From Diprion similis (Eukaryota; Arthropoda; Insecta; Hymenoptera; Diprionidae), in NCBI RefSeq assembly GCF_021155765.1, contig NC_060105.1:6446001-6510000 (forward strand): a stretch of 64,000 nt of DNA, given 5' to 3'. The first letter of the stretch is position 1. The number at the start of each line of letters is the position of its first letter. The translations under genes were made by a program, and so were the position numbers. A model generated the notes under the pieces. The model was not told the DNA's origin. It saw only the letters and a program-made list of their open reading frames with translations, and did not search any database. Below are positions 1 to 64,000 of this stretch, piece by piece.

Positions 1-863
1 TCTCAGACTTTCAACATGTAACTAGCAATTGTCTACCGAATTGGTCAATGACTGATTTTCATTAACTTTTATTCGTAATAATTTATCAATTTCACTTATT
101 CGAAAAAATATTTACAAGTAGTATTTTTGTGCAGAATGGTCTGCGTTTTCCACTGCAAATAAATTATATTTTTGAAAAACCACGTAAATCTAGCGTAAGT
201 TAAAAAATTAGTTTTATACGTCCGCTGCATCTTCGTCCGCAATGAAGTTATTAGCCTTGACTGAAGACTATATATTCAGTCAACGGTATGGGTTATGTAA
301 TAAACATATGTACACAAATTACATGAGGTACATATAGGAACAATCATTTATTTTTATCCTTTGATTAACTTCATCGACTCATTCTCCCATTATTTGCATC
401 AAGAAAAGGTTTCTAACTCTATTCCTTTTAAACCGGGTGTATGTTTATTGTGCATCTACTTGGATAATATTATTTTTATCGTTCCGATGGAGTTGGATTA
501 TCATTGCTGAATTTGGCTCAAATGAATTTGCGTAGATGAAAAGCATGCGGCGTCCATACGGGGTTACATTAAAATTTCAGTGCGTTCTCTCTTTGGTTCG
601 TCCTTCCATAGGCATAATAATATTCGACTCGGCATTGTCTGGGTACATACTCTATATTATCTTAGGTACACGCGGTGAGCGATGGTAACATCAGTTCTTG
701 TCACCTTTGCGTACCCACCGCCTACCGACTTGAGTTTGCTTGAGTTGCGGGTGCAGGGTAGACGCAGAGGGCGCCGCTTGACGATGAATTTTAGAGATCA
801 GAGTTCATAATCGGTTACGAAAAGTCCCATAAGGCTATCAGTCTTTATATATCCTCAGTCAAC
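1..863 (+). promoter_or_regulatory. Upstream/promoter region of the plus-strand feo-like copy; left outer arm of an inverted repeat
   Basis: No coding frame is seen here. Positions 53-863 are repeated almost perfectly in reverse orientation at 6165-6975. Sampled stretches (361-420, 721-780, 781-863) show zero, zero and one mismatch. A TCAGTC initiator-like motif lies at 855-860, right at the inner end of the arm, so this is plausibly the promoter and transcription start of the plus copy. The start of transcription is inferred from the motif only. Confidence 0.5.
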
Positions 864-2511
864 ACCAGTCGTAACGGCGAAATGTGTGCTCGCTGCTTCA
901 ACAAATCGTATTAATATATAAATTTTAAAGAAATTGCTCGATATTTTATACTGTTGACAGTTATTTTAAAAGATATATTCTATAACTTAATAATATTGTT
1001 TCAATTTTATTCTTCTGACCAAGACCAGAAAAAAACGGAAGATTCTCCACTTTGGTAAGTACAGTTCGTTATCGTCTTTACCAGCCAGTTTTTACACGGG
1101 CACGATATGTTGTCGTTGAGACGATTCAGAACTTCTGAAATGCATTAATTAAGATTCAACCGTCATGATAAATATTTCGAAAATACGTCTGCACCCGAAA
1201 AAGGCCGAGACCGCTGCATCAGACAAACTTTAGACAGTTTCAAGGAGTTGGACGCTGTAGTTGCCTGTGTGATGGCTGGTTTGATTCTCGTGAAAAAAAC
1301 CCACACAATTGAAACGAGAAACTATTACCTCGATCTATTCATTTTTATCAGATTACGTTCTTAATTTGGTATATGGGCTGAGGTGCCCATAACTGGTTGA
1401 AGGAAAAAAAAATGCGTTGTTAACGTCATGCGAATTTGAGGGGTCTTGTGTCACGACTGTCACGACTCTTTGCCGATTAATGTTTGCAGACCCTAGAGGT
1501 GTTGGCCGTGACGCCGCAATCAAAATAGGACCACAATGACGGGATTAGTTGGAATGTTGTCATCTAAGACCAAGTTATTTTTTGTAGTGTGTTTTGATTC
1601 TCATATCGTAGCATGGTAATTCTTCTACCATGTATGGGCATTGCGTTTGATGGACCAAGGTAAAATGAATGTGAAACAGCTTTGGTTTCGATATATTAGT
1701 CGGGGTGTAGCTTGGAAATGTAAAAAACGAACACATAATTGATAAGTAAACTCATGTGAAACCTTTCTTTTGCAAACTAAGGTACTTTATACAAAAGTAG
1801 AATAAAATGCAGTCAATTTCGATAAATATTGTGGTTGAGACTCATTGCCGATTATTAGGAATCCTGTAACTTCAATTTAGCTAATTTAGATTATTTGGTT
1901 TGCATAATGTCGCCGAAAACTTGTTTTACTCAAAAATGTTACTGTTCGACATTCCTTTGGGATTGTCATCATTTTAAATCCTTTTAAACGTAGTTACAAT
2001 TTTGGTCAAGTTGGATGATTTCTTGCAATAAATGAGTAATCAATCAATCAATCAATAAACAATCTTGTAATAGGTAAATTAAAAATAACCAAAGTAAACA
2101 TTGATCTTATAAATCTTGGCTAAACTTGATCTCGATGAAATTGGGTGGTTCATATTTGATAACACAAAAAGTGAATGAGCAAAAGCAAATTATCCACACT
2201 GAAAAAAGTTTGAATTTAAAAAAATGGAGTGGCAGTTTTTATAGAAGTACGAACTTAAGCACTGAAATTTCTTCATCGCAACATAGTCAAGTAGTCGAAG
2301 TTTTACTTCTCACTGACTCTCGTGCAACACGCTCATATTAAAATTCTACTGCAATTTTGTAATAAATATTCTTGGTTAATCCTGCCACTAATATAGTCAC
2401 GAATTGATCGTATATTTGTGTTGGTCGTTTCAAACTAAAAGTAGTTGAAGCCATTTTATGTGTTATTGATTATTTTTTAACACAACATTGAGGTGCTACT
2501 TATGTTTTCAG
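864..2511 (+). other. 5' leader and first intron of the feo-like copy
   Basis: A likely non-coding first exon ends at 1054 with a good donor (TTTG/gtaagt). The first recognisable PRC1 exon begins at 2512 after a TTTTCAG acceptor. No start codon in frame with that exon was found in the leader. The PRC1 family normally has only about ten residues before this point, so a tiny coding exon could be hidden in the intron, or the start could be lost. A short (CAAT)n run is at about 2040-2056. Otherwise I see nothing in this stretch. Confidence 0.4.
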
Positions 2512-5313
2512 GGAACCAGTGGCACAAAAGATCTCTGATTCGATTAGGGATTTTATGGGTAAGGTCGCAAACATTTGGGATGAGATAGGTTCTCCTCTTG
2601 AAACTAAGGAAATTCACTTGAAGCAAGTCTTCGAACATTTTGAGGTAATACTTTACGGCTTAACGTGCCTACCACCCACTGCCCCGGAATAAAGTTAGCT
2701 TACTCGTAACTTACATTCAAAATGCTGTTTCATATTGCTTATATTTTTGGTTATTAATTTATGCAGCTGGAAAAAAGTATAGTTTAAAGTATAGTTTTAA
2801 GTGTTGGTTCTAATTTTTAATGGGCGGATCATACAACAGGATCTCCAAAGTGCCATGCTTGCTGAAATGGAAGAACGAAGAGCACTGCTGGCAAAGGAAG
2901 TCGATCAACTGACGAATGAGGCAATTACCCTCCAAAAGGTTTGATTATTCAGTATTGTACATTTATTTTCGTTTTATTGTAGATTTATCAATCGTTTTAT
3001 CAACAATAGCTTTATATTGACTACAGTCATTTAATTATACCAAATTTGAATTACCATTCACTTTCGAACTCTGCTGATTTTCCTCGATCCCTTAAGAAAC
3101 TGCATAGTTGTATTGATTAGTTTTCACCATTTTGACATCCGCCCTATTGTAGGATCTGCAAATTGAAGTCAAAGTTGATGGATATGAAAACTTATCGCTA
3201 TATGAAATAAGAACAAAGATTGATCATCACCTACAAAGGTTACGGTCGGTTAAACAACAGAGGTTAAACTCCACCGAGGAACTTCTGAAAAAGGTTGGTT
3301 GAAGTTGAAATTCATGATAAAAAATTGAAAACCCGTCATTTACTCCCTGACGATTAGGTCTTCAGGTGTTGGATGAATTTACATTTGATGTAAATAATTT
3401 ATGATATTGTTAATAACTCATTTTCAGGAAGTAGATATTTGCAAGGCTCTTGGGTCTGAACCTATTGGAATGGTGGCCAAAATACCAAGTGAAACTGAAC
3501 TGAAGAAATTCAAATTATACTTGGAGAAAATTGAAGCTGAAAAGGTGAACGTTGTATACGATATTTTAGCCACGGTCATTTCAGTAATATTTGTCTCTAG
3601 CTTGTTATATAATCGTTCGATTTGATGTCAAAAATATTTGTAAATTCCTTAGCATCCCAAAATTTGTACCTTTTTTCTAATTTGGGTTTGTTTACTTCTC
3701 ATCTTTCAATCTTAGACGCGCAAGGAAGAGACTTTCAAGGATGCCCGAAGCGGTATAATCGCGATAATGGATGAACTACGTCTTACACCTGAAAACAGTT
3801 TTGAAAGCCAAGTATATAATCGCGGAGATTTTATTTACAACACCGTGAATATCGCGAAATTGAGAGAATTCTACGATAACTTGAAAAAAACGCTCATAAA
3901 TGCTAAGCAAGCGGCAGAGGACAAACGAGAGCAATTATCAAATTTGTGGAAATATCTAGCGGAGCCTACTGAAAAAGTTCAAGAATTTCTGGGTAAAAAT
4001 AAAGGATGTGCTGTCGTTGGGCTAAAAGCTGTGAGTTTCTCTTTAAATACTACGAAGATAACAGGTATCATTTTTCTCAATTTTTGTACTATATGCCATA
4101 TAAGAAGAAGGTCTGCCGTTGATAAGTAATGGTGGTTTTTGTAGAGCAATATTTGAACTTCTGGAAGAACGAGATAACATGTGGCAGCAAATTGAGAATC
4201 TGGAACAGCGTGCGAATGATCCCAATCGTTATCAAAATAGAGGTGGTCAACTCCTTGCAGAAGAAAAAGAGCGTAAAGTTATTCAAAAGGTATTTATATC
4301 AGAAGTAAATTTGATGCATTAAATATCAATTCTGAAGACTAAATGCTTTGTACTGGTAACTTTGCACTAGATTGAACAAAAGCAAGCGATAGATTACGTC
4401 GTTTTTCGTTCTTGCTGTTTTCGTATTTGTGACCAGCCTTGCAATAATATCATCTATCTGCGATGATAATATTGTAGTGTGATATTTTAATGAATTAAAA
4501 AAGTGCTCAGTCGGATTTATGTATCAATTTTTATGCATTCAGAAACTGCCGAAGATAGAGAAAGAATTGGAAGGTTTGCTTGAAGATTACCAATCGAAAA
4601 ATGGAAAACCTTTTACCACACACGGAGTACCATTGGCCGAAACGTTGAAAAGATCTTGGGCAGAATACATAGCAGCTAAACAAACTATGATTACAGCCAG
4701 GGTAAGCAAGCTAGTATATGCCCATAATTCTTTTAAGAAAGCGCGATTGTGGTAGCATATACATGGAAAAGTTTTCTTGAACACATTCATTTTTATTAAT
4801 CAAAATCGGGGTTATTACTTATTTATGTAAATATTGTAAAATATGCTTGGAATTAAATTTTCAGAAGCAGGCAAAAGATCACCCTACAACCGTAAAAAAA
4901 AACACCTTTGAGCGTTTCTAAACGCACACCGTCCGCAATGAGTATACGGCGTCCATCTCCTGCGAATTCCACACAGAGGAAACAGCAGAGTGATCTGACA
5001 CCTTCCAATCCCTCACGAAAAAGAGGTCATCGAAGTAGCGAATCAAGGAAAATGACAGTCAGCGCATCGAAAATTAAACGAGGAAGGGTGAGAGAGATTT
5101 ATTTTATATAGTTTGCATCTACAAACAAGCCTGCATCTCTGCGTTTTCAATCTGGAAAAAAAGAAATAATCCAGCATTTTACATATTTCCAATTTTCAGG
5201 TTTCAAGAAGAATATTCACTCGCGGAGATAAGAGTATACTAAACGATAACGAAAATCGTACGATTAGTCAAACAGCTTCCTCTTCGAGCGCGAGTATGTC
5301 CAGTTGGTGTTGA
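2512..5313 (+). pseudogene. feo: PRC1/Ase1-family cytokinesis protein (fascetto-like), disrupted copy
   Basis: Encodes a microtubule-bundling protein of the PRC1/Ase1/Feo family, which crosslinks antiparallel microtubules of the central spindle. Exons read from splice sites: 2512-2644, 2840-2938, 3153-3293, 3428-3544, 3716-4030, 4145-4289, 4543-4701, 4865-5087, 5200-5313. The family shows in the coiled N-terminus (GKVANIWDEIG), the conserved DPNRYQNRGG block with the following LLAEEKERK, and a Ser/Arg/Pro-rich tail. Three faults are visible. The exon expected between 4030 and 4145 is missing. Joining the flanking exons directly is out of frame and stops at once. A nine-A run near 4894 shifts the frame; eight As would restore the expected TPLSVSKRTPS reading. 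The last residues, from about 5270, overlap the inverted copy in antisense. No start codon was located. The functional feo is probably elsewhere. Family assignment is strong; pseudogene status is inferred. Confidence 0.75.
3420..4044 (+). repeat. Left inner arm of the inverted repeat
   Basis: This block, from the acceptor of the fourth recognised exon to just inside the intron after the fifth, is repeated in reverse at 5524-6148. Both copies are 625 bp. By eye the fourth exon differs at 2 of 117 sites, the intron at roughly 11 of about 171, and the fifth exon at about 42 of 315. Confidence 0.85.
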
Positions 5314-6164
5314 TATATCAAGGGCTTGAAAGCTCGACGTTCTTCGTCGCCAATTTGACATTGATTCAGCAGGCAGCTTAGATTTTGTACATACTTTGCA
5401 ATATTCTCATTCCTCTTCTGTTTGCATCTTTTGATTTCATCATGAAACGGAAGTATCACAAAAAATTGGCTAGACACAATACTTAACGACAGGTAACACT
5501 AGAGTGATGCTGAATCAAATCTGAAAGAGAAACTCACAGCTTTTAGGGTAACGACAGTATTTCCTTTATTTTTCCCCTGAAATTCTTGAAATTTTTCAGT
5601 CGGTTCCTCTAGATATTTTCACAAATTTTTTGATTGCTCTCGTTTGTCCGCTGCCGCTTGCTTCGCATTTACGAGCGTTTTCTTCAAGTTATCGTAAAAT
5701 TCGCTCAATTTCGCCATATTCACGCTGTTGTAAATGAAATTTTCCCCAGTATAAACTTGGCTTTCAAAACCATTTTCAGGTGAAAGACCTAGTTCATCCA
5801 TTATCGCGATTATACCGCTTTGGGCTTCTTTGAATGTTCCTTCCATGCGCGTCTACGATTGAAAGATGAGAAGTAAACAAAACCAAATTAGAGAAAAGGT
5901 ACAAATTTTGGGAAGCCAAAGAGTTTACAAATATTTTTGACATCAAATCGAACGACTATATAACAAACTAGAGACAAATATTACTGGAATGACCGTGGCT
6001 AAAATATCGTATACAACGTTCACCTTTTCAGCTTCAATTTTCTCCAAGTATAATTTGAATTTCTTTAGTTCATTTTCACTTGGTATTTTGGCCACCATTC
6101 CAATAGGTTCAGACCCAAGAGCCTTGCAAATATCTACTTCCTGAAAATTTTCCCCAGTATAAAC
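5268..6164 (-). pseudogene. Inverted partial feo/PRC1 copy
   Basis: Reading on the minus strand, this fragment has an exon at about 6141-6025 (EVDICKALGSEPIG...), its intron, an exon at about 5853-5538, and a further exon ending at 5268. The second exon carries an in-frame TGA where the plus copy has TGG (after REQSKNL). The last exon (KRCKQKRNENIAKYVQNL, then QIGDEERRAFKP) matches the PRC1 segment missing from the plus copy and ends at a stop right at the junction with it. The first three coding exons are absent: the promoter-like arm (6165-6975) joins directly to the acceptor of the fourth through a short insertion. It is a truncated, broken duplicate with introns, so it arose by DNA duplication and not by retroposition. 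Confidence 0.75.
5524..6148 (-). repeat. Right inner arm of the inverted repeat
   Basis: Inverted partner of 3420-4044. It contains the two shared feo exons of the minus-strand fragment. Beyond 5524 the two copies lose similarity: the plus copy continues with unrelated intron sequence, while this copy continues to the exon missing there. Confidence 0.85.
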
Positions 6165-6975
6165 GTTGACTGAGGATATATAAAAACTGATAGCCTTATG
6201 GGACTTTTCGTAACCGATTATGAACTCTGATCTCTAAAATTCATCGTCAAGCGGCGCCCTCTGCGTCTACCCTGCACCCGCAACTCAAGCAAACTCAAGT
6301 CGGTAGGCGGTGGGTACGCAAAGGTGACAAGAACTGATGTTACCATCGCTCACCGCGTGTACCTAAGATAATATAGAGTATGTACCCAGACAATGCCGAG
6401 TCGAATATTATTATGCCTATGGAAGGACGAACCAAAGAGAGAACGCACTGAAATTTTAATGTAACCCCGTATGGACGCCGCATGCTTTTCATCTACGCAA
6501 ATTCATTTGAGCCAAATTCAGCAATGATAATCCAACTCCATCGGAACGATAAAAATAATATTATCCAAGTAGATGCACAATAAACATACACCCGGTTTAA
6601 AAGGAATAGAGTTAGAAACCTTTTCTTGATGCAAATAATGGGAGAATGAGTCGATGAAGTTAATCAAAGGATAAAAATAAATGATTGTTCCTATATGTAC
6701 CTCATGTAATTTGTGTACATATGTTTATTACATAACCCATACCGTTGACTGAATATATAGTCTTCAGTCAAGGCTAATAACTTCATTGCGGACGAAGATG
6801 CAGCGGACGTATAAAACTAATTTTTTAACTTACGCTAGATTTACGTGGTTTTTCAAAAATACAATTTATTTGCAGCGGGAAACGCAGACCATTCTGCACA
6901 AAAATACTATTTGTAAATATTCTTTCGAATAAGTGAAATTGATAAATTATTATGAATAAAAGTTAATGAAAATCA
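6165..6975 (-). repeat. Right outer arm of the inverted repeat (promoter copy facing left)
   Basis: Reverse complement of 53-863, equal in length (811 bp) and nearly identical by eye. The initiator-like motif is mirrored at 6168-6173. In this orientation any promoter activity would point into the locus, towards the plus-strand copy. The arm ends where the match breaks off, at TGATTTTC on both sides. Confidence 0.85.
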
Positions 6976-8262
6976 TTCACTTAACCTTTCATATTTGATT
7001 TTCTGGACATTTTTAATTTATTAACCAAGAAAGTATAATATTTATGACCTGCGTACAAAAATTCAATTCCGATTTCGCATATCGGATTTGCGGAAAAGTA
7101 TATGACTTCTGTTTTTGATCAGTCAAGCGTCTAGAAAAAAAATTGTTTTGTTTAAAAACCTGCTTTTGTAAATTTTTGAGATAGCTTCAGGTATTCTGAC
7201 TAAGGAAGCAAAAACAGGATCTTAGTAAAATGACGGACTGTCAGTCTGTTGTACTTTCTGTCAGTGGGACTCAATGATCTCCAAATCAGAATTGCAAACT
7301 TGTTTTGATTACTCACGTTACATTTGTGGAGGTATTTTTTCTAGTTAAGCCCAAAATCGTCTTCAATCAATCATCCGTCAGCATCAATTGTCTATTTATT
7401 ATATCGGATTAGTTATTTCCCACTGTAAGTACTATATAAAGAACAAAATGGCGATTAGATGATGTCGATTCCTGAACGATCCATATCACTGTTGAAAACT
7501 GAGAGAGAATTTTATTACTGTGAGCGTAGCTAATTGTAGATACATAAGTGTATGTGCATTACTTGATATAACAGATAGAATTAGCAGCAAGTTATTTCCT
7601 TTTCTAATCTCTATATAAGATATAATGTTTATTTCAAACGTGTATAATGACGGTACTTGATAGTTTTTCGTTTGGTAAGCCATTAACAATAAAGTACCGG
7701 AAATATATTGCAAAACTCTTCGAGATTATTGTTTTCGTTCAGTGCGGTCGAGTAATTGAACTTGAAGACCTGTAAGGTCAGTACGAGTTTATATTTTCCA
7801 AGAACATGGCATTCTACACCGAATGCAACGTTGGTAAATACTAGAATGGCTCACGGTATTTAATTGTCGAGTGGTCAGTGTCGAGCCTGCAGCGCGACGA
7901 CGAGCATATCGGTTTGAATCATTCATTTATTCCTCCGTTGTGTTAATCTAGTAGATTTCGGTCTGCCGATCATTCTAGAGTCGAGTCAAGCGTTTTTTTC
8001 GGATTACCGACGCGCGCGTGTTAATTCCCGCAGGCTGTGCGAAATCTCAACCAACTCACTTTTCATCGAAAGCTAAGTATTTGACCGATTCACCGGTTTT
8101 CCGTAGTCTGGTCAGCAACATTGCCGACTCCCGATGGTTAAAATGGTTGTGTGTGATTGGAAGTAATTGAATATCTAACAATTGCATAGTATTGAATCCC
8201 AAAGTGTATCGTTTATACAGTCCAATGGTGGTAATTGATCGTTCAGCGAGCAGCAGCGCGAG
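6976..8262 (+). other. Intergenic; possible non-coding first exon near 7870-8262
   Basis: No protein-coding gene is recognised. A stretch from about 7870 (TCAGT initiator-like motif) to a donor at 8262/8263 (GCGCGAG/gtaact) is richer in CG dinucleotides than its surroundings. It could be a 5' untranslated exon of a plus-strand gene, perhaps the opsin 16 kb downstream. No splice evidence links them, so this is a weak candidate. Confidence 0.2.
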
Positions 8263-8391
8263 GTAACTATCTGTATGTTATTCTTTGCTTCTCTTTGTGT
8301 TTGAAACTTAGCGGTGTTGTAATTTGATTGATACATGAATAATTTATTCGATTATGTCCATTTATATTATAAACAAATATATTTATGTGTT

Positions 8392-8423
<32 letters not shown>

Positions 8424-11400
8424 CAAAAAAGGTAAGCTAATTAACACTGTCGGGTAAATGATTCACGAAGTGACACTAGATAAGCATTCTCGTGGTCCTA
8501 CGCGAAGCTTTGAATATCCCTTGATTTTCCCTACGGCCAGGTAAACGATGGTCATAGTTTATTGTGTGCTTACAACCCGCGTGCTTCATGAAACTTTAAT
8601 AAGTGCGGCGCAGCGGCCTCAATTGTACAGAGATTTATTTCTTTATGTATAAAAAAGTACAACTCCGCCGGGAATCGAGCTCGTAATTACGAGTTCCGAG
8701 TAACGGGCCAAACAGATTTGTTTTCTCATTTCCAGACCAGCTTGTAATAATTTCTTGTGTAAAAAAATTCACTAATTCCGTGGGTCGTCTCATCGGCAAA
8801 CGAACTTCCGTAAATATTTCATAACAAGTTATTATACCTATAGCTATAGATTATCGATCGTTACCTGCATAATACAAAAATTTTTTTTGCCCTTATTCCC
8901 CATGCTTAGCGGTCATGGATTGCAGATTATACCTCTGGGAAGCATGTTGGCTTCGCCCTAAAGGCTAGGCTTCTTAGGTAATACATAGATTATGTGTAGA
9001 CACTGTACACGCATAAACTGATCGAACGTATCGAGATTTATTAGCGTTAGGTAAGCCTTGGCATGCGCTGGTGTGTTTAGCCGAAATTGATCTCTTTATG
9101 TAAGGATGACAGTTCCGTTCCTGTCGTCCCTTCAGAGCTTCCCTTGTTGCCGATACGTATTTTACGAGGTATTTTCTGTACATTTATCAAACTTTTTTCC
9201 TCCCCCAACCGAATTGGTCGGAAACGTAACATTTGCTCCCACCGAAGACCTTCCAGCTTAACAGCTTCACTATATATGTATACAGGTACTACGTAACATG
9301 TGCACCCCTATTTGTACGCGTACATAGTCATACAGATTCAGGAATATGTGAGTGGATAGGACATATAATAGGACCCGGTATACGAACATATTCAACTAAC
9401 GAGGACTTGACTTTGTAAGTTACACCCACTTCGACGGAGACGTATAATTTTCAGAATCTCTTCACACTCGGTGTATGCCCTTATCTATAATTTATCTGCA
9501 TTATTCAGGTGCACTTCGTAGCGGAAAGTTTGCATCCTTATTTCCATTTCTTAGACAAATTCTGAAAATAGTTGAGAGATTATACATGCCACGCATCATT
9601 AAAATTATTCACGACGTTTTTCACGTACCTACCTACGGATAGGGTGCATATCTACTCTGGGTATACATAATCACTCGACTTGAACAAGTCTCGAGGCTAC
9701 GATATTGCATATAATCTCGTATTCGCCTCTTAAAGGGGAGAGTATTACTTTACGTTTGACGTATGGTTAAAAAATAAAAAATTAAACGCATTATTTTCGA
9801 AACAGTTGTCAAATTAGTTTATTGCATTAACGAAAAGTACGCACAAAAAATAAATAAAACAAGTCACACGCGATTTGAGTATGAAAGTTGATGCTTTCTG
9901 AAACCAATTTTCCATTGACTATCGTTATATAGGTAGATGTGTAAAGAAATGAACAAATTAATAATTTTTCAGCGATGAATAATTTTTCTTGAAAAAAAAA
10001 AATCATTGTTTTCAATTTTTAATACGTTTCTTTAAAAACAGGAGCACGGTAGGATCTTTGCAAATAACGATATTACTGGCATTTGAGTGGGCATTTGTTT
10101 TATCTTATCTGATCCGCCTTCATACTCCGTAATTTTTATTATCATAGGTTGTACATAGCCACATGGCTATCATCTGATTGTTTGAAAATAATTACTACGA
10201 CAGCTCGCCGAGCCAAGTCATCCTGGCGATTCTGTGTTATTTTTTTTACTCCTACATTTTCCTTAAAAAGTATGACACTCATATTTCATTTCTTTTTACC
10301 CGTCCGGTATTTCTCTACCTCATGTTTCGGATAAGAACGCGAAGAGGACTCGGAGTAAGGAGACGTGTAATAAAGAAAATACTAAAATGCAATGACCTGC
10401 TTAAGGAGGTTTGTTAGCTTAAAATCTACACTTTTTTGGTAATTGGTAACAAGGTGGTAGCACGTTGAGTGTTTATCAGATTAATGGTGAAAAATTTGGT
10501 CATGGCAAGAATTCTTCACAATTCCACTGTGAATCTGGTTTTCTGACGATGGTACAGTTAAATATTTATTTGTCCAACTCTGTAATGATATATTGATTTT
10601 GATGAAAAAAATAGCAATACTGTATTGACTATTGAGAGAAAACAATATCCTTTTCGGTGAATTTGCAAGAAACAGTTTTTGAAACCAATAAGTTATCAAT
10701 GGAGTGGAATTGAACAAGTTTACTAAATTTTTCACCGTTTCAAAGCCATTTGCGAAATGAAAAATCAACATTGAAGCTCATGTTCTTAAGGAACGATAAA
10801 AAATAGATAAAATGATATATAGAATAGGAAAACAACGTCTTTTCACCTTGAATCGTGGATAAAAATGTTTTGACTCGAGAACGCGATATTGTTTCTCGTA
10901 AAAAAAAAATCTATTTGGCTGTTTTTGAGGTAGGCTAAAAAATTGACAGGGTAAAAGCGTGTGATTCAAAAAATTGACGGTGAAAATTTTTGTGCGAGGT
11001 TTTCAGGACGTCGTACTAATTGACATAGAAAATCCTCGATGAAATAAAAAAATGTCACGGTCAACCGTTTATTGAGTTTACATGGACATATAATACACCC
11101 ATGAATTTAACGCGGAACCAAATCGCTTAATTGCTCACTCTGTAGTTAGCGGCCGAAACCTCATGGCTCCACCTATGACACGGTACGAGGTCTCTCGCAC
11201 ACGAATTGACACGCGAATGTGGATCAAGTGGACACAATTAGTCGCAGGTAGACAAAGTGGAGGAGATGGTGTAGCTTAATTGTAGGGACGAGGTATATTG
11301 TATAGACAATGTCGCGAAGCCTTGATCCTGCGCTTCTGCCTAACGGAATGCATCTCTCAAATTTCCCTCAGGTTAATCGGAGGTCTCAACTCTCCGAGGA

Positions 11401-45607: not shown

Positions 45608-46639
45608 TTACTCGTTGACAGGCAAGTGGCAGCAGAGTAAAAACTTGAGGCGAACCTCCTCGACCGTCCTTCTGAGGAATTCCTTGAGTTCCCTTGCCTT
45701 GACACGCACGTCTTCGCGCATAAGGTTGTAGCACATGGCGATGAGGCCCATGCCGAGTAGCAGGAAGACGAAGTTGATGACGAGCTTGGTTTGACTTGAG
45801 GCGTGACTTCCGTCGCGAGACCCAAAGCTAGTCACGCCAGGGACGAAGTCGCCGATGCCGATCTTACAGAGCGAGGTAACGCAGAAGTAAACGCTGTCAA
45901 GGAAGCCCCAGTTCTCCCACTGGGCGAAGGTCACGGATCCGGCCAAGACGTAGCCGAAAATTACCCAGAGGCAGGCCGTCGAGGGTACGATTATGCGCTC
46001 TCCGCCGGTTCTCTGCTTCCCGGTGCACTCGTGGGCTCGCCTGTAAAGCCACCGAAAGCTCTGGGCGAGGACCTTGCCCATATTCATGAAGTAGAGTATG
46101 TAGAGAGGGATGCCGATCACGGCGTACACGACCGTCACCCACCGGCCAAGATGGGTCCTGGGCACGATGTTCCCGTAACCGATCATCGTGAAGACCGACA
46201 TGCAGAACATCAGGGCAGCCGGGAAGGTCCAGACGTCCTTGACCCCACGACCGTGGTACTTTTGTTTCTTGGCGAGGTGGACAAGTTCGTTTTGGAAGTC
46301 CTTCAAAACCGCCCTGGTCCGGAGCTCGAACGCCGTCTGGTTCAGGGTGTTCACCAGGCTGTCGCCCGCCGTTTTGACCCAGAGGTCATTCGCGCAGGTG
46401 TTTAGTGCTCGGGCCGCGATCTCGACTTCCGGGTACTCGGACATCGTCTCTATATGGATGAAGCCGAAGGCTCCGACCACCGCGTACCCCACTATCAGAC
46501 CCCCGACGCCGACCTGGGTGCACATAAAGGCCACCAGCTTACGGCAGCAGTCTTTCACTTGCTCTCTTGGGTCCGGGCCCGTCGACGTACTCGAGGAGTC
46601 GCGGCTCCTCACCGACGACCGCATCGCTCTGCGAGACAT
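45608..46639 (-). CDS. Two-pore-domain potassium channel (TWiK-like)
   Basis: A single exon encoding 343 residues; the in-frame stop directly before the ATG fixes the start. K2P channels carry background potassium current across the plasma membrane. The layout is typical: TM1 about 40-64, an extracellular cap with Cys82 and an NQT glycosylation site at 100-102, pore 1 with TMIGYGN (151-157), TM2 about 168-190, TM3 about 219-240, pore 2 with CKIGIGD (258-264), TM4 about 286-304, and a short basic tail with a double Cys. The Thr that normally precedes the I-G-Y/F-G filter is Met in pore 1 and Lys in pore 2. The gene is GC-rich next to AT-rich flanks. K2P identity is strong; the exact insect orthologue is not assigned. 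Confidence 0.9.
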   Translation of the reverse strand: MSRRAMRSSVRSRDSSSTSTGPDPREQVKDCCRKLVAFMCTQVGVGGLIVGYAVVGAFGFIHIETMSEYPEVEIAARALNTCANDLWVKTAGDSLVNTLNQTAFELRTRAVLKDFQNELVHLAKKQKYHGRGVKDVWTFPAALMFCMSVFTMIGYGNIVPRTHLGRWVTVVYAVIGIPLYILYFMNMGKVLAQSFRWLYRRAHECTGKQRTGGERIIVPSTACLWVIFGYVLAGSVTFAQWENWGFLDSVYFCVTSLCKIGIGDFVPGVTSFGSRDGSHASSQTKLVINFVFLLLGMGLIAMCYNLMREDVRVKARELKEFLRRTVEEVRLKFLLCCHLPVNE

Positions 46640-49434: not shown

Positions 49435-52019
49435 CTACATCCCTCCTTTACCTTGTCCAAGTTCCTTCTCCTCCTCAGAGTCATCGGATATTATTTGCAC
49501 GTTTCTAACCGGTCCCATTTTTCTGTACCGATAGGGGTTCGGGGCCGGCGCAGCGGCAGCCATAACAGCCGGTGCCATTACGGGTCGATCGGGGTTGATA
49601 GCGAGCTGCAGCATCCTGAGCAGAAGAGCTTCCCTGACCGGCGGTGGAAGGACTTCCTCATCATTTCCAGGATTCTCCGTCTCCTGAGCGTAGAACTTTT
49701 GCCTGTAAACCCTCTTCCCGTACCCAGAAGCGGGCTCCTGATAATCCTCGTACCTGCCGGGCTGGTAAACGGGGTTCAGAACCCTCGATAATCCCGGGCG
49801 TCTTCCTGACGCCGGTTGGACGGCGAGTCTTTCGCCGTACTGGTTGGGCAGCGGGCCCTGTTCGTACCCGTTTCGAAAGAGGTTTTGCCGTGGAACCGGG
49901 GCCTGATAGTCGTTCCGGTAGGTGGGGAAGGTCTGCTCGTCGTAAAGAGCGTCCTCGAGGTAGGTTCGAGGGTGGGCCAGGGCTCGGGCCCCGTATTGAC
50001 TGATGAGGAGTCGCCGGAGGAGGATCTGAAAGTCGCGACGACTGAGAGGCGGTGTTATGGGTTGCAGGGGTTCCGGGGGTGGAGCAACATTCTGGGCCCT
50101 ATAGGGGTAGTCCTGGACCGACGAATAGTCCGCCTCGTCAACTGGAGACTGCTGATCGTCCTCCGGATACGGCAGTGGACGAGGAACAGGTCTCATCAGG
50201 GGCCGCAAGAAGTTGGGTCCGACCTGAACTCGCGGTTTGGGACCTTGCTCCGGCGCCGTCGGCTCCGCCAAGTACCGTGGCTGGGTCTGCTCTTGGGCCT
50301 CGGGGAAAAGGTGGTTTGGAAGCGGACGGAATATTATTCTGCTCAGCGGAAGCTGTCGGTAGGACGCGGGGTCCTCGTCATCGGGCACCCTTCGAGCCTC
50401 GACGATTATACCCTCGGGTGGAACTTCTCTGAGGTACTGTTGCTGGTCCGGATGTTCCCTGACGTAGACCGGCTCTGAACTCTGCCTCGCGTAGTCGCGA
50501 CTGGGTTGAACGGGCGTCCTGAAGAGGACCTGTTGCTGCGGCTGGGCGTTCCGCTCCTGTTCCTGGAGGTCCTTTTCCCGAGTTTCATACGCCCTAAGGC
50601 CCTCGTATTTTGAGTTCGGTTCGAACCTCGCGGGGCCCAGGTTGTCCTGGTTCACGTAGATCGTCTTTGGTCGCTCGGCTCGCGAGCCTGCGATCCTCTG
50701 GGCCACCCGGGGTGGCGTCGAGGTCGTGAATAGCGGCCTCGAGAGCGACAACGCGCCCCCGTAGACGTCGCCGTGCTCGTCCACCGCCTCTTCCGTTGCG
50801 CCGTCGGCCTTGGTCGTGTCCTCGTTGAGCTGTCGCCGCAGGTTGTTGCCCGTAGTGATTTTCACCTCGTCCTCGTGGTCCTCGAACTCCTCCGTGATGG
50901 GACGCAGAGAGTGGCTCGGTTCGATCGGCCTCTTGGCGAATATTAACCTCCGATGAACCGGGGCTCGTTTGTCCTCGACGACCGGTCGCGTGATCTGGGA
51001 GTCCTCGTCCTCCGCTTCTGTGTCCTCCTCGACCACCAGTGGCGCCGGACGCTGGTGCGGGCTGAAACGAGGCCTGTTTCTGGACGGTGATGATTTGATG
51101 TAATGTCCGTTGTAGGTTGGCCTCGAGGACGGCGGCTCGGTCGTCGTCGTTGTGCTCGTCGTCGTCGTCGAGGTCGTGGTGGTCTTCCTGAGACGCGGAA
51201 TGGTCTGGACCACCGAAGACCTGGCGCTGGCCTCGGTCGCGTAAACGACGCTCGGCTTTCGCGTCGACGTCGAGGTCAGGTTCAGACGAGGGATGCTCTG
51301 GACCACCGAGACCTGTTCTTGCAGTGGGGAAACCGTGGTCGCCTTGAAACCAGTTCCGTTTGACGAGGAGTAGGACACCCTCTTGATCTCGCCCTCGGCG
51401 TCGACGAAGCCAAAGGTGCCCTTGATGTTGCCTAAAACATCGCGGCTCTCCACCTGTCGGGGTAATTAGTGACCATGGTCAGTGCACGATGGGCATGTTA
51501 AAGTGTGATAACTGGTATCCGGCGAACCGCTCCAACTTACCTTGAAGGAGCCATCCCCAGCCTCGTAGCCAAAGGTGTACGATCCGTCCTCGTTGACCTT
51601 TCTTATTTGCTTCAGGATCGCCACCTGCTGGTCGTTACTCGTCTCGGACGTTTGCTGATCCATTGGGTTGGTGCAGCTTGCCGTCACCAAGCAAAATATT
51701 GCTATTAGCCATGGCGTCATCTTGAAACAGAGAAGACGGTTCGTCATTCAATGTAGATATACAAAAAACTCGACATTTATTATATTTTCTAAAATTTTAA
51801 CTTTCTGGCACACTTGAATCATATCACATTTTGACTCGAGTTTCACGTTTTCTACTATCAATTTCTCTTTCTACGAAAAATCTGTAACAACTAGATGTCA
51901 ATCACTGACTGATCGGGAACACACACGGGACATTTGATCGTTGATTGGATACGATTGGGAGTGGATGGAGGGCCGATGGAAACGCGACGAGGAAGACCCA
52001 CCTTGCAGGTAGAACCCAT
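49435..52019 (-). CDS. Large cuticle protein with R&R chitin-binding domain and low-complexity tail
   Basis: A secreted structural cuticle protein. Exons on the minus strand: 52019-52002, 51720-51541, 51453-49435, all phase 0, giving 738 residues. The very short first exon (MGSTCK) is typical of R&R cuticle genes. The signal peptide continues in exon 2 (MTPWLIAIFCLVTASC). The Rebers-Riddiford domain spans about residues 46-105 (VNEDGSYTFGYEAGDGSFK, then GNIKGTFGFVDAEGEIKRV) and is split by an intron at FK/VE. The long tail contains Thr-rich runs, two SVVQ-x-IPRL motifs, acidic patches, and Pro/Arg/Tyr/Gln-rich sequence. A TATA element lies at the right distance upstream. The cuticle class is firm; the exact orthologue is not named. 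Confidence 0.85.
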
Positions 52020-60193: not shown

Positions 60194-61777
60194 TTAAAAG
60201 CCAGCGGAAGCACCGCGCAAGAACTGATCAATCTGCCCAGCGGAAAGTCGGGAAGAATCGCTACCAGTTGACGGGGACGGCGAGATGTAGTAAAAGGGTT
60301 GAGAACCTTCCTGGGACTCTAGAAGTTGAAACCGATGAGGCTGCTGCTGTCTGCGTTGTTGCTGAGCGTAGAGTTGCTGGGACTGTTGAAAAAGCTGGGC
60401 CTGTTGCTGCCTGTATATGGCGGCTTGAGGCTGGGGGGCGGGGGAGGCGGCGGCGGTTTGTGGGAGCTGTTCTCTTTGCCTGTAAATCGATGCCGCGGAT
60501 GCTCTGGGCTCCTGTTCCGTCTGCTGTCTTTGAGCGAGCTGTTGCCGTGCTACAAACGGTTGCAGCTTGTGACTCAAACTAAAATCTCCGACCGTCTGCG
60601 GCAGGGTCTGATAAAGTTGTGTATTGTACTGACCGGTTGCCGGGTCAAAGACCAGTTCCGATTGGTAGATGGGGTCGGCGCGCTGCGCCTGTTTCGGTTT
60701 TTGGCTCTGCAGCGGTGCGGGCTGCGTGGGCCTCACGGGTCTGGGACTGAGTCCCACGGTGTTTACGTACCGCTCAATCTCCGCCGCGAAGTCGTCGCCA
60801 CCTAGCGGCGCGGGACTGGTACTCCGATGACGAACCGTCTGGGGCCCGGGCCTCGGGGCATAGATCACGCCAGGCCTCTCGGTCTGCGCGATGGGCGCGT
60901 ACTGGGCCGCAACCTGGGCCGCATGGGGCCTCGGCGTGATGGCGACGGCGGGCACGAACTGCGGCCTGTAGGTCTGAGGCTGGGGGGCTGGGGTGGTGGT
61001 GGCCTCAAGGGCGCGATAGATGGTCGAGGCGGGGGTGGTCGGGGCCTGGTATCGCGGGGTGGTCGGTTGGTAGACGGCTGGACGCGGGGCGGGGGTCGTC
61101 GGTGGTTGGGTGAACTGCTGACGACGGGGAATGGAGACGACGGGGGGACGGCGCTGGGGTGGTTGGGGCCTGACGTCTTCGAGTTCCTGGCTTTCGTCGT
61201 CGTCGCTGATCTGGTACTGAGTCTGGAAGATGGTGGTGGGGGCGCGTGTCGTGGGAGCGAAGGTGGGGCGTGTGGGTCGCTGGACGGGCCTGACGGAGGG
61301 GTAGTTCGCGGGCCCGGAGACGTCGTCCTCGGGCTGCCCACGCACCGGCTCCTCGTCTTCGTCCTTGGGAGCGTTGGGGTCGCAGGGGTTACCGGATACG
61401 TAGGTGAACTCGCGCTTGTTACCGTCGGGATCGACGTACCCGTACTTCCCGCGCACCACGCAGTCCGTGCCCCGGGTTTCCTCCTTGAACGAACCGTCCG
61501 CCGCCTCGTAACCGAACGTGAAAGACCCGTCGTCGTTCACCTTGTTGTAGTTGCGGATGGTCTGGACAGGCGGTGGTTTCGAGGCGCTCGTATCCTTGGA
61601 ACGTGGCGATGGAAGTGCCCGGGTTCGCGGCTGGTAGACGACCGGTGAATCCTCCTCCTCGACCCCCGCACCCTCCTCGTCCTCGTCGACGTAGTACACC
61701 TGCCGTTCCTCCACTCGCTGTCGGCTTTGCGGAACGCGTCGCGCTTCCGAAAGGACCAGGAGGCAGACTGGGATCAC
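60194..61777 (-). CDS. Large cuticle protein with R&R domain and Gln/Pro-rich tail; first exon not found
   Basis: One large exon on the minus strand, beginning after a TTCCGCAG acceptor (first codon GTG at 61777) and running 527 codons to a stop. It opens with the end of a signal peptide (VIPVCLLVLSEA), so a short first exon supplying the start Met lies upstream, between 61.8 kb and the window end or beyond. The R&R domain covers residues about 80-132 of this exon (NDDGSFTFGYEAADGSFKEE, then GKYGYVDPDGNKREFTYV). Two cysteines, in TDCVV and GNPCDP, bracket it and may pair. The tail is Pro/Thr-rich, then Gln-rich. Same strand and layout as the gene at 49-52 kb, suggesting a related pair. Confidence 0.85.
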   Translation of the reverse strand: MIPVCLLVLSEARRVPQSRQRVEERQVYYVDEDEEGAGVEEEDSPVVYQPRTRALPSPRSKDTSASKPPPVQTIRNYNKVNDDGSFTFGYEAADGSFKEETRGTDCVVRGKYGYVDPDGNKREFTYVSGNPCDPNAPKDEDEEPVRGQPEDDVSGPANYPSVRPVQRPTRPTFAPTTRAPTTIFQTQYQISDDDESQELEDVRPQPPQRRPPVVSIPRRQQFTQPPTTPAPRPAVYQPTTPRYQAPTTPASTIYRALEATTTPAPQPQTYRPQFVPAVAITPRPHAAQVAAQYAPIAQTERPGVIYAPRPGPQTVRHRSTSPAPLGGDDFAAEIERYVNTVGLSPRPVRPTQPAPLQSQKPKQAQRADPIYQSELVFDPATGQYNTQLYQTLPQTVGDFSLSHKLQPFVARQQLAQRQQTEQEPRASAASIYRQREQLPQTAAASPAPQPQAAIYRQQQAQLFQQSQQLYAQQQRRQQQPHRFQLLESQEGSQPFYYISPSPSTGSDSSRLSAGQIDQFLRGASAGF

Positions 61778-64000
61778 CTGCGGAAAATTGAAAGGATCAG
61801 CCTTCCGGGAACGTGCAAATTCCTGACCAGTAACTACTATCGGCCGATCCTGACTTCAGACTCGTGTAATAACGAGAATCGTGACCGCGCAATGCCGCCC
61901 GCATACTTCCTGCGGTGGGAACGCCCTGCGCCAGTTTACCTCGCGGTTTCGTAACCGCCTTGCTCGGCTGACCCGAATCCGACGGAGCACCTCGAGACCG
62001 GCGTGAGATTCGGATCCAGCGGACTAGATCGCCTTGAACCGTCGACGCAGTCTTTGGATCGGGTTCGCAGTTTAATGTAAAAATGCGCGGGTGGGGGGGG
62101 GGGGGGGGGGGGGGGGTTATTGATGTCTCGCAGAATGAATTTTGGGTGAATTTTCACATGGTTGAGCACAATTTTTACAAATTTAAGTCAAATTTGCGGG
62201 AGTAAGTACGAATTCTAAACTACACGAAATGTTTTTACAGGGCAATTGGCACTGATGCTGAACGATTAGAATTGGTCGGTCAGGCCTAAACTATGATAAG
62301 TCATTACCCGTGGCTTACACACTTACTCTGTATTCACTAATTACAAAGGCTTAAATCTTGTATATAGAGCGAAATCTCGATTGACGCCTTGCGACACGTA
62401 CGAAGGAGGCAGAAAAAGGATCCTTGATGACTAATGGTCGTTTCATAAACGTTAAATTCGAGACAATTTACAAGCCACCTCGAGTTTTTTTTTTTTTTTT
62501 TTCTCTTCACAAGCACCCGCAATTATCATCATACTCAAATTACAATGAACCATTATCGCCGAATTTGATCTGGTTGAAAGAAAAGATCTTGACCCTTGCT
62601 CGTGGGCATCCTAGGCTAACCTTCGGAATATTCCCAACTCATTGTTAAAAAGCGCGTCAGTGATATATATCCATCGATTTCGAACGGATGGTTCAACGAC
62701 GTGTTCTTTCAGTTTAGTCACGTAACCAATCACTTTTAATATTGTTTCCTAACCGGAACGTGGCGGAGAAGTAAGGGAAATATAAAACCGCGGGAAATGA
62801 AACCGACAAATACGTAGACTGTTGTATGAGAATCGTTGGAAAATTAAACGTTGGATATAATACCTATCGAGAATGGAAAAAGAGGATTGGCAATTTTATT
62901 ACAGGCATAATTAAACCGGGTACTGCCTGAAGCAAGCGAGCAAAATGCATGGTCTTGTGACCAACGTTGGGTAAAATATAGTAAAAATCGAAGCACGAAC
63001 ACCATTGCGCACGGTCATTTACGGTCAAGAAATGACCGTAGCCAATCTGAGATAAGTGAGTTCTGGAATATTCCTTGGCAGAGTTGGGAACACTAAAGTA
63101 TATGGTCTCCGTGTCGATCGACAAGGACGGTGAAATGAAAGTGAAATAGACGGCCGAACACGCCTTCGAGCAGATCGGCCGAGCGATGATCGTTAAGCCA
63201 CTTATATTTCGCGCAATTGTTTAGCGTCTAGAATAATCTTGTGTAAATACTACGATCCGACTTAGATCCAGCAGCGACCTCGGCGAATCAGTGATCAAAA
63301 CGCGATCAAGGTTGGCTCGTGTTCACTGTCATAACCGGTCGATCGCAGGACTGGGGATTGAAAATTGAACGAATGGTGCTGCATCGGCGATGCTATGAAA
63401 ATGACGGAATTATTTGAGGACAGTGAAACCGACATACGAATCTATATTCAAGGCGGATGGCTCCTCGCTATTTGGTTCACGTTGGTATGTAAAATAATAA
63501 GCGAGAGTCGAGTACTTCTGAGTCACATTGCCGGTATTACGACACAACCGATCGTCGGTGACGTTAACGACACCTCGGCGACGCCCCATGTTGCACTTCG
63601 AGTTTCTATGGATCACGTTTTGATCGGTAGCAAATGCACCTCGCCGCTAAGGATTGGGCTTTCCAAAATTCCCTTCTTAGAAGAATCGAAAGTGACTGTA
63701 ATTGTGACGAGTCAAGTTCAAGCGCAATGCCGCCGATCCGTTCCCCCTGATTGCCGATCGTTTTCCTTCTATTGATTAACAATAATTTGATGGAAAGTGC
63801 AGATGAAACCGCGAAGATGAGAAGCTTCAGTGGTTTTTTGTCGCGGTGCGCGTGAAGCGGCAAAGGAAAGTACCTCACGATCAAAGGACCAGTTGTAAAT
63901 CCTGACCGGCCAATCGTAATGGCGTGAAAATCGCCGTTCGATTAGAGCCTGTGGGCTGTGAAGCGTTAAGAATAGTAAACAAATAGCCTGGGACCGTGTT
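61778..64000. other. Upstream region of the second cuticle gene
   Basis: The missing first exon and promoter probably lie here or further on. A minus-strand TATA-like CTATATAC with a following GTAAGT-type donor is at about 62318-62385, but no start codon fits between them. A 24-base G-run is at 62093-62116 and a T-run at about 62487-62502. A plus-strand open frame at 63365-63775 has no recognisable product. Confidence 0.35.
62093..62116. repeat. Poly-G tract
   Basis: 24 consecutive Gs, able in principle to form G-quadruplex structure. Its length is hard for sequencing to determine exactly. Confidence 0.9.

Follow-up and report, generated by a model that had tools for sequence, protein, structure and literature searches.

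The closest described systems to the locus reported here are the feo/PRC1/Ase1/MAP65 protein family (PF03999), templated insertions made by theta-mediated end joining or microhomology-mediated break-induced replication (MMBIR), tandem duplicate pseudogenes that undergo concerted evolution through gene conversion, and Drosophila hairpin RNA (hpRNA) loci. In Drosophila, feo is an essential cytokinesis gene. Filler sequence copied from nearby is a usual sign of template switching during break repair, and inverted arms are a known source of misassembly. The hpRNAs of Drosophila simulans are described as having arms with gene-exon fragments or a transposon (PMC10317233).

The window analysed here is the 64-kb stretch C1:6446001-6510000 (contig NC_060105.1) of a 269-Mb genome in 60 contigs. 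A broken and rearranged feo duplicate, B, adjoins an apparently working feo/PRC1 gene, A; the order along the contig is gene A, a transposon-like fragment, and then tandem duplicate B with an inverted unit, C, inside it. The features, in window coordinates unless marked L004, are the following:

1..863, plus strand: right part of the transposon-like repeat fragment, which starts upstream of the window at L004 9310, is 1554 bp long as a whole and lies exactly between A and B
865..5300, plus strand: 5' and middle part of copy B, with exons 1-6, the last 20 bases of exon 7, exons 8-10 and the start of exon 11 (BLAST against A, exon map)
1035..1054, plus strand: exon 1 of B, with ACG where A has ATG (exon map)
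3420..4044, plus strand: B cassette, consisting of exon 5 (3428-3544), exon 6 (3716-4030) and the intron between them; 70/625 differences to A and 54/625 to C
4044..4045, no strand: deletion point in B; the 280 bp missing here relative to A (L004 6095-6374) include most of exon 7 together with its acceptor
4865..5087, plus strand: exon 10 of B, lengthened from 222 to 223 bases by one additional A in an A run
5310..6148, minus strand: feo fragment of unit C, from the end of intron 4 to the middle of exon 7 (BLAST, exon map)
6024-6140, minus strand: exon 5 of C (exon map)
5538-5852, minus strand: exon 6 of C, containing a TGA (exon map)
from 5447 down, minus strand: exon 7 remnant of C, with the acceptor AG changed to CG and a 12-base gap (exon map)
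6149..6164, minus strand: 16-base linker of C; 6145-6164 equals 5737-5756 in exon 6 of C at 20/20 bases
6165..6979, minus strand: transposon end of C, with 8/815 differences to 49-863 and a 676-base exact run
6978..8393, plus strand: 3' part of copy B, matching the very end of the last coding exon of A and its 3' flank (BLAST)

A genome search for an intact feo gene found the uninterrupted copy, A, at C1:6438776-6443912 (L004 2776-7912), just outside the window on its upstream side. The gene model, hand-built from splice sites and frame, has 11 exons and an open frame of 652 codons, with GT/AG present at all ten introns. Gene A matched PF03999 (MAP65_ASE1; E 7.4e-92) with 309 bits, the cut-off being 26.9, and aligned with human PRC1 (chain 4l3i_A; E 6.7e-50) over residues 19-446 of 458 queried, in agreement with the feo/PRC1 identity given by the first-pass annotation. 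By its PF03999 match and its uninterrupted spliced frame, gene A is a feo/PRC1 member. A 330-bp dispersed repeat (at least 48 matches, its own copy included) lies in intron 4 of A at L004 5112-5441 and is absent from B. Searching the genome with the A protein gave 23 matches, 22 of them within the three copies A, B and C and the remaining one on contig C10. This last match is a fragment (L061 4019-4618; C10:5661019-5661618) that has deletions and resembles parts of exons 10 and 11 and of the 3' UTR, with a DNA identity of 81-91%. It is a possible retrocopy, although no more than about 9 bases cross the exon 10/11 boundary.

Profile and sequence analysis identified the block 3420-4044 and its inverted counterpart 5524-6148 as feo/PRC1 exons 5-6. 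The first-pass annotation had described an inverted copy without the first coding exons and a plus-strand copy without a later one, and the exon map agrees: C starts at exon 5, and of exon 7 B retains no more than the final 20 bases. Two further features go beyond that account: the copy on the plus strand is a degenerate duplicate of A in tandem, and the two inverted blocks are unlike in their divergence and in its distribution. Exon 7 is 224 nt long, not a multiple of three, so that its skipping in B shifts the frame. The last coding exon of B is cut at 5300 and most of it is replaced by unit C; splice sites are intact in the other exons of B. Considered as a second working gene, B failed on the exon map for start codon, complete exons and open frame. 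Disabling lesions, by which a pseudogene is recognised, are present in both B and C. Judging from these lesions, both are most probably pseudogenes and most probably have no present function, and a working protein from either is unlikely. The duplicated unit of A ends about 1.6 kb before B. A run of about 24 A residues is located at about 8398-8421, exactly where the likeness of B to A stops, and the sequence past it is single-copy.

Comparison of the window with itself recovered the two inverted block pairs reported in the first-pass annotation. The outer pair, 38-863 and 6165-6990, is 98% complementary, its best BLAST piece being 49-863 against 6979-6165 (815 bp, 8 differences). The inner pair, the cassette arms 3420-4044 and 5524-6148, was found by self-comparison and by BLAST as 625 ungapped bp with 91% identity and 54 differences, the arms being separated by 1479 bases. 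BLAST printed E-values of 0.0 for both pairs, which excludes chance. A single continuous inverted duplication of uniform age is ruled out by the 54/625 as against 8/815 differences. The earlier description of a palindromic, partial inverted feo duplication stands for the feo exons of the cassette but fails for the block 53-863, which is a dispersed repeat with at least 58 matches and is missing from A at the corresponding place. Its dispersed nature also rules out 53-863 as a feo promoter or UTR.

The figure of at least 58 genomic matches to 38-863 includes both copies of the window and is a lower bound, since 40 of 85 candidates were scored; the upstream part of the repeat had at least 43 matches, its own copy included. 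Among the matches listed, the best other full-length match (826 bases) reached 90% including gaps, and shorter ones had up to 95% identity over some 500-580 bases. Both arms in the window exceed most family copies in length by about 45 bases. The right end of the repeat is sharp (CCTCAGTCAAC). Of the 11 copies with the left edge shown, at least 9 have shared sequence past that of the 1554-bp copy, which is therefore left-truncated. A longer copy (L059) carries a 51-bp inverted repeat (82%) near both ends, at 5212-5262 and 9667-9717, which suggests that the repeat is a DNA transposon; a Pfam search at E 1 with one 262-aa open frame of a relative, the sole frame tried, gave no match. An origin of the near-identical arms in two independent insertions is ruled out by the 676-base exact run, compared with 90% for the best other full-length match among those listed. 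The arms differ at eight sites, and each has its own departures from the other copies, the B arm at three of these sites and the C arm at five; neither can be equated with the family sequence.

Unit C consists of the feo exon 5-7 fragment, the 16-base linker and the transposon end. The sequence in exon 6 of C that matches the linker has, in the alignment, a form missing from A and B.

The divergence between A and B is patchy. The three flanks showed 51/2504, 13/1255 and 19/1417 differences, in total 83/5176, compared with 70/625 in the cassette (Fisher p 5e-29), which is bounded by the 330-bp repeat insertion in A and the 280-bp deletion in B. Within the flanks, differences were denser at the outer 5' edge (9/139 vs 42/2365) and next to C (8/207 vs 11/1210), and seven of the eight differences between the transposon arms fell within the outer 118 of 815 sites (p 9e-6); the limits of the edge tests and of the 118-site test were set after the positions were seen. 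Towards the cassette, the flanks showed no such increase (2/132 at 3264-3395 and 3/200 at 4045-4244). The change at the cassette edges is consequently abrupt, a step of the kind also expected if the cassette were a patch from another donor. Within the cassette, runs of shared sites, set against shuffles, were in excess for A=B (9 sites, p 5e-5) and for B=C (9 sites, p 0.026), but not for A=C (2 sites, p 0.99).

NG86 estimates for the cassette exons, with codon columns containing a stop excluded, were dN 0.098 and dS 0.37 for A/B, 0.113 and 0.48 for A/C, and 0.087 and 0.19 for B/C. Exon changes found only in A (unpolarised, with those on the stem of B and C counted among them) were distributed 7/6/24 over the codon positions, favouring the third (p 0.0002). 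The small numbers of B-only (4/7/3) and C-only (5/7/12) changes showed no departure from an even distribution. A-only changes were rarer in the intron between exons 5 and 6 (8/171) than at third positions (24/144; p 0.0006). The cassettes scored 69.7 (B), 64.4 (A) and 47.2 bits (C) with PF03999. The sole outgroup was the degraded C10 fragment, with part of exons 10-11 and the 3' UTR; it agreed with A at 7 and with B at 2 of the 11 A/B differences in the 3' flank adjoining C, with a gap at 2.

We consider it likely that B is an old tandem duplicate of A that was rearranged by template switching, was partly homogenised by later conversion and is now without function. A would have been duplicated in tandem long ago, and C may then have formed by break repair with template switching, through theta-type end joining or MMBIR. 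Later gene conversion would have homogenised A and B, and likewise the inner parts of the two inverted transposon arms, while the cassette, lying between the insertion in A and the deletion in B, would have escaped and retained its older divergence. The order of these events and the repair pathway are what we infer from the present arrangement. Besides the step at the cassette edges and the short A=C run, two observations count against the account in its simple form: the intron deficit of A-only changes needs further conversion or constraint, and the slightly higher PF03999 score of the B cassette means that the cassette of B has not always been the decaying one. Several features would also be expected if A had been duplicated in tandem recently (1-2% divergence) and the cassettes of B and C had been patched from a diverged feo paralogue or allele since lost from the assembly: the abrupt step at both cassette edges, the similarly low divergence of all three flanks, and the linker, which copies sequence missing from A and B and so implies the existence of a diverged template when the junction formed. 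We regard such a recent patch as rather unlikely, as the donor it needs was not found in this genome (the only match to the A protein outside A, B and C is the C10 fragment, which lacks exons 5-6) and as a recent C does not predict an outer transposon arm (7/118) diverged like parts of the cassette. That the locus is an assembly artefact, either a haplotype false duplication or a foldback join, is very improbable: the flanks of A and B are about 98% alike and inverted arms of the kind that cause misassembly are present, but the contig is 18 Mb long with zero N within the 50 kb compared, B and C have lesions of their own and a cassette diverged by 11%, the two inverted arm pairs are unlike in spacing and divergence, and a transposon fragment lies between A and B.

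A different reading concerns function. A transcript through B and C might fold on the 625-bp cassette or on the transposon arms and yield siRNAs acting on feo or on the transposon family. A long inverted repeat, one of the criteria for an hpRNA locus, is present; sense exons 5-6 and their inverted copy, 1479 bases apart, lie within one possible transcription unit, and the cassette arms share exact runs of 78 and 75 bases. The arms of D. simulans hpRNAs are likewise described with fragments of gene exons or a transposon (PMC10317233). Against this, few exact 21-mers are common to the arms and the coding sequence of A (4/605 for C and 66/605 for B), and an essential cytokinesis gene would be an odd siRNA target. 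We hold such folding and siRNA action to be highly unlikely, and just as unlikely is the proposal that the hairpin transcript feeds small RNAs regulating feo or an older feo paralogue. If it were true, a rearranged, transposon-bounded pseudogene would have turned into a regulator of a cytokinesis gene. On the favoured history of an old, rearranged and partly converted duplicate, the locus is an ordinary sort of genome relic of modest importance with an unusually legible history, in which a self-templated repair junction and an escaped island are found together with what looks like conversion, both between the direct copies and between the inverted transposon arms.

Gene models in this region could merge A with B or score B as a second feo gene. 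Elsewhere in the window, a minus-strand open frame of 343 codons at 45608-46639 appears to resemble a two-pore potassium channel. Two long minus-strand open frames, at 49435-51465 (676 codons) and 60194-61855 (553 codons), lie in G+C-rich stretches (57% and 60%); by appearance they may encode cuticle or chitin-binding proteins. Literature searches for a tandem duplication of fascetto/PRC1 and, separately, for gene conversion gave no match, and absence from print is claimed no further than those searches.

Compared with the known systems, gene A matches the feo/PRC1/Ase1/MAP65 family (PF03999), as do the cassettes of B and C, whereas B and C are fragments with lesions and only A has an uninterrupted frame. 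Like the Drosophila hpRNA loci described in PMC10317233, the locus contains gene exons and a transposon as inverted copies; it differs in that few exact 21-mers match the possible target. As in insertions templated during theta-mediated end joining or MMBIR, the filler of C is a copy, taken from about 400 bases away, although for C the pathway is inferred from one junction. With tandem duplicate pseudogenes under gene conversion the locus shares near-identical flanks and a divergent island between two indels, and to these it adds an inverted fragment that is bounded by a transposon and has a self-templated junction.
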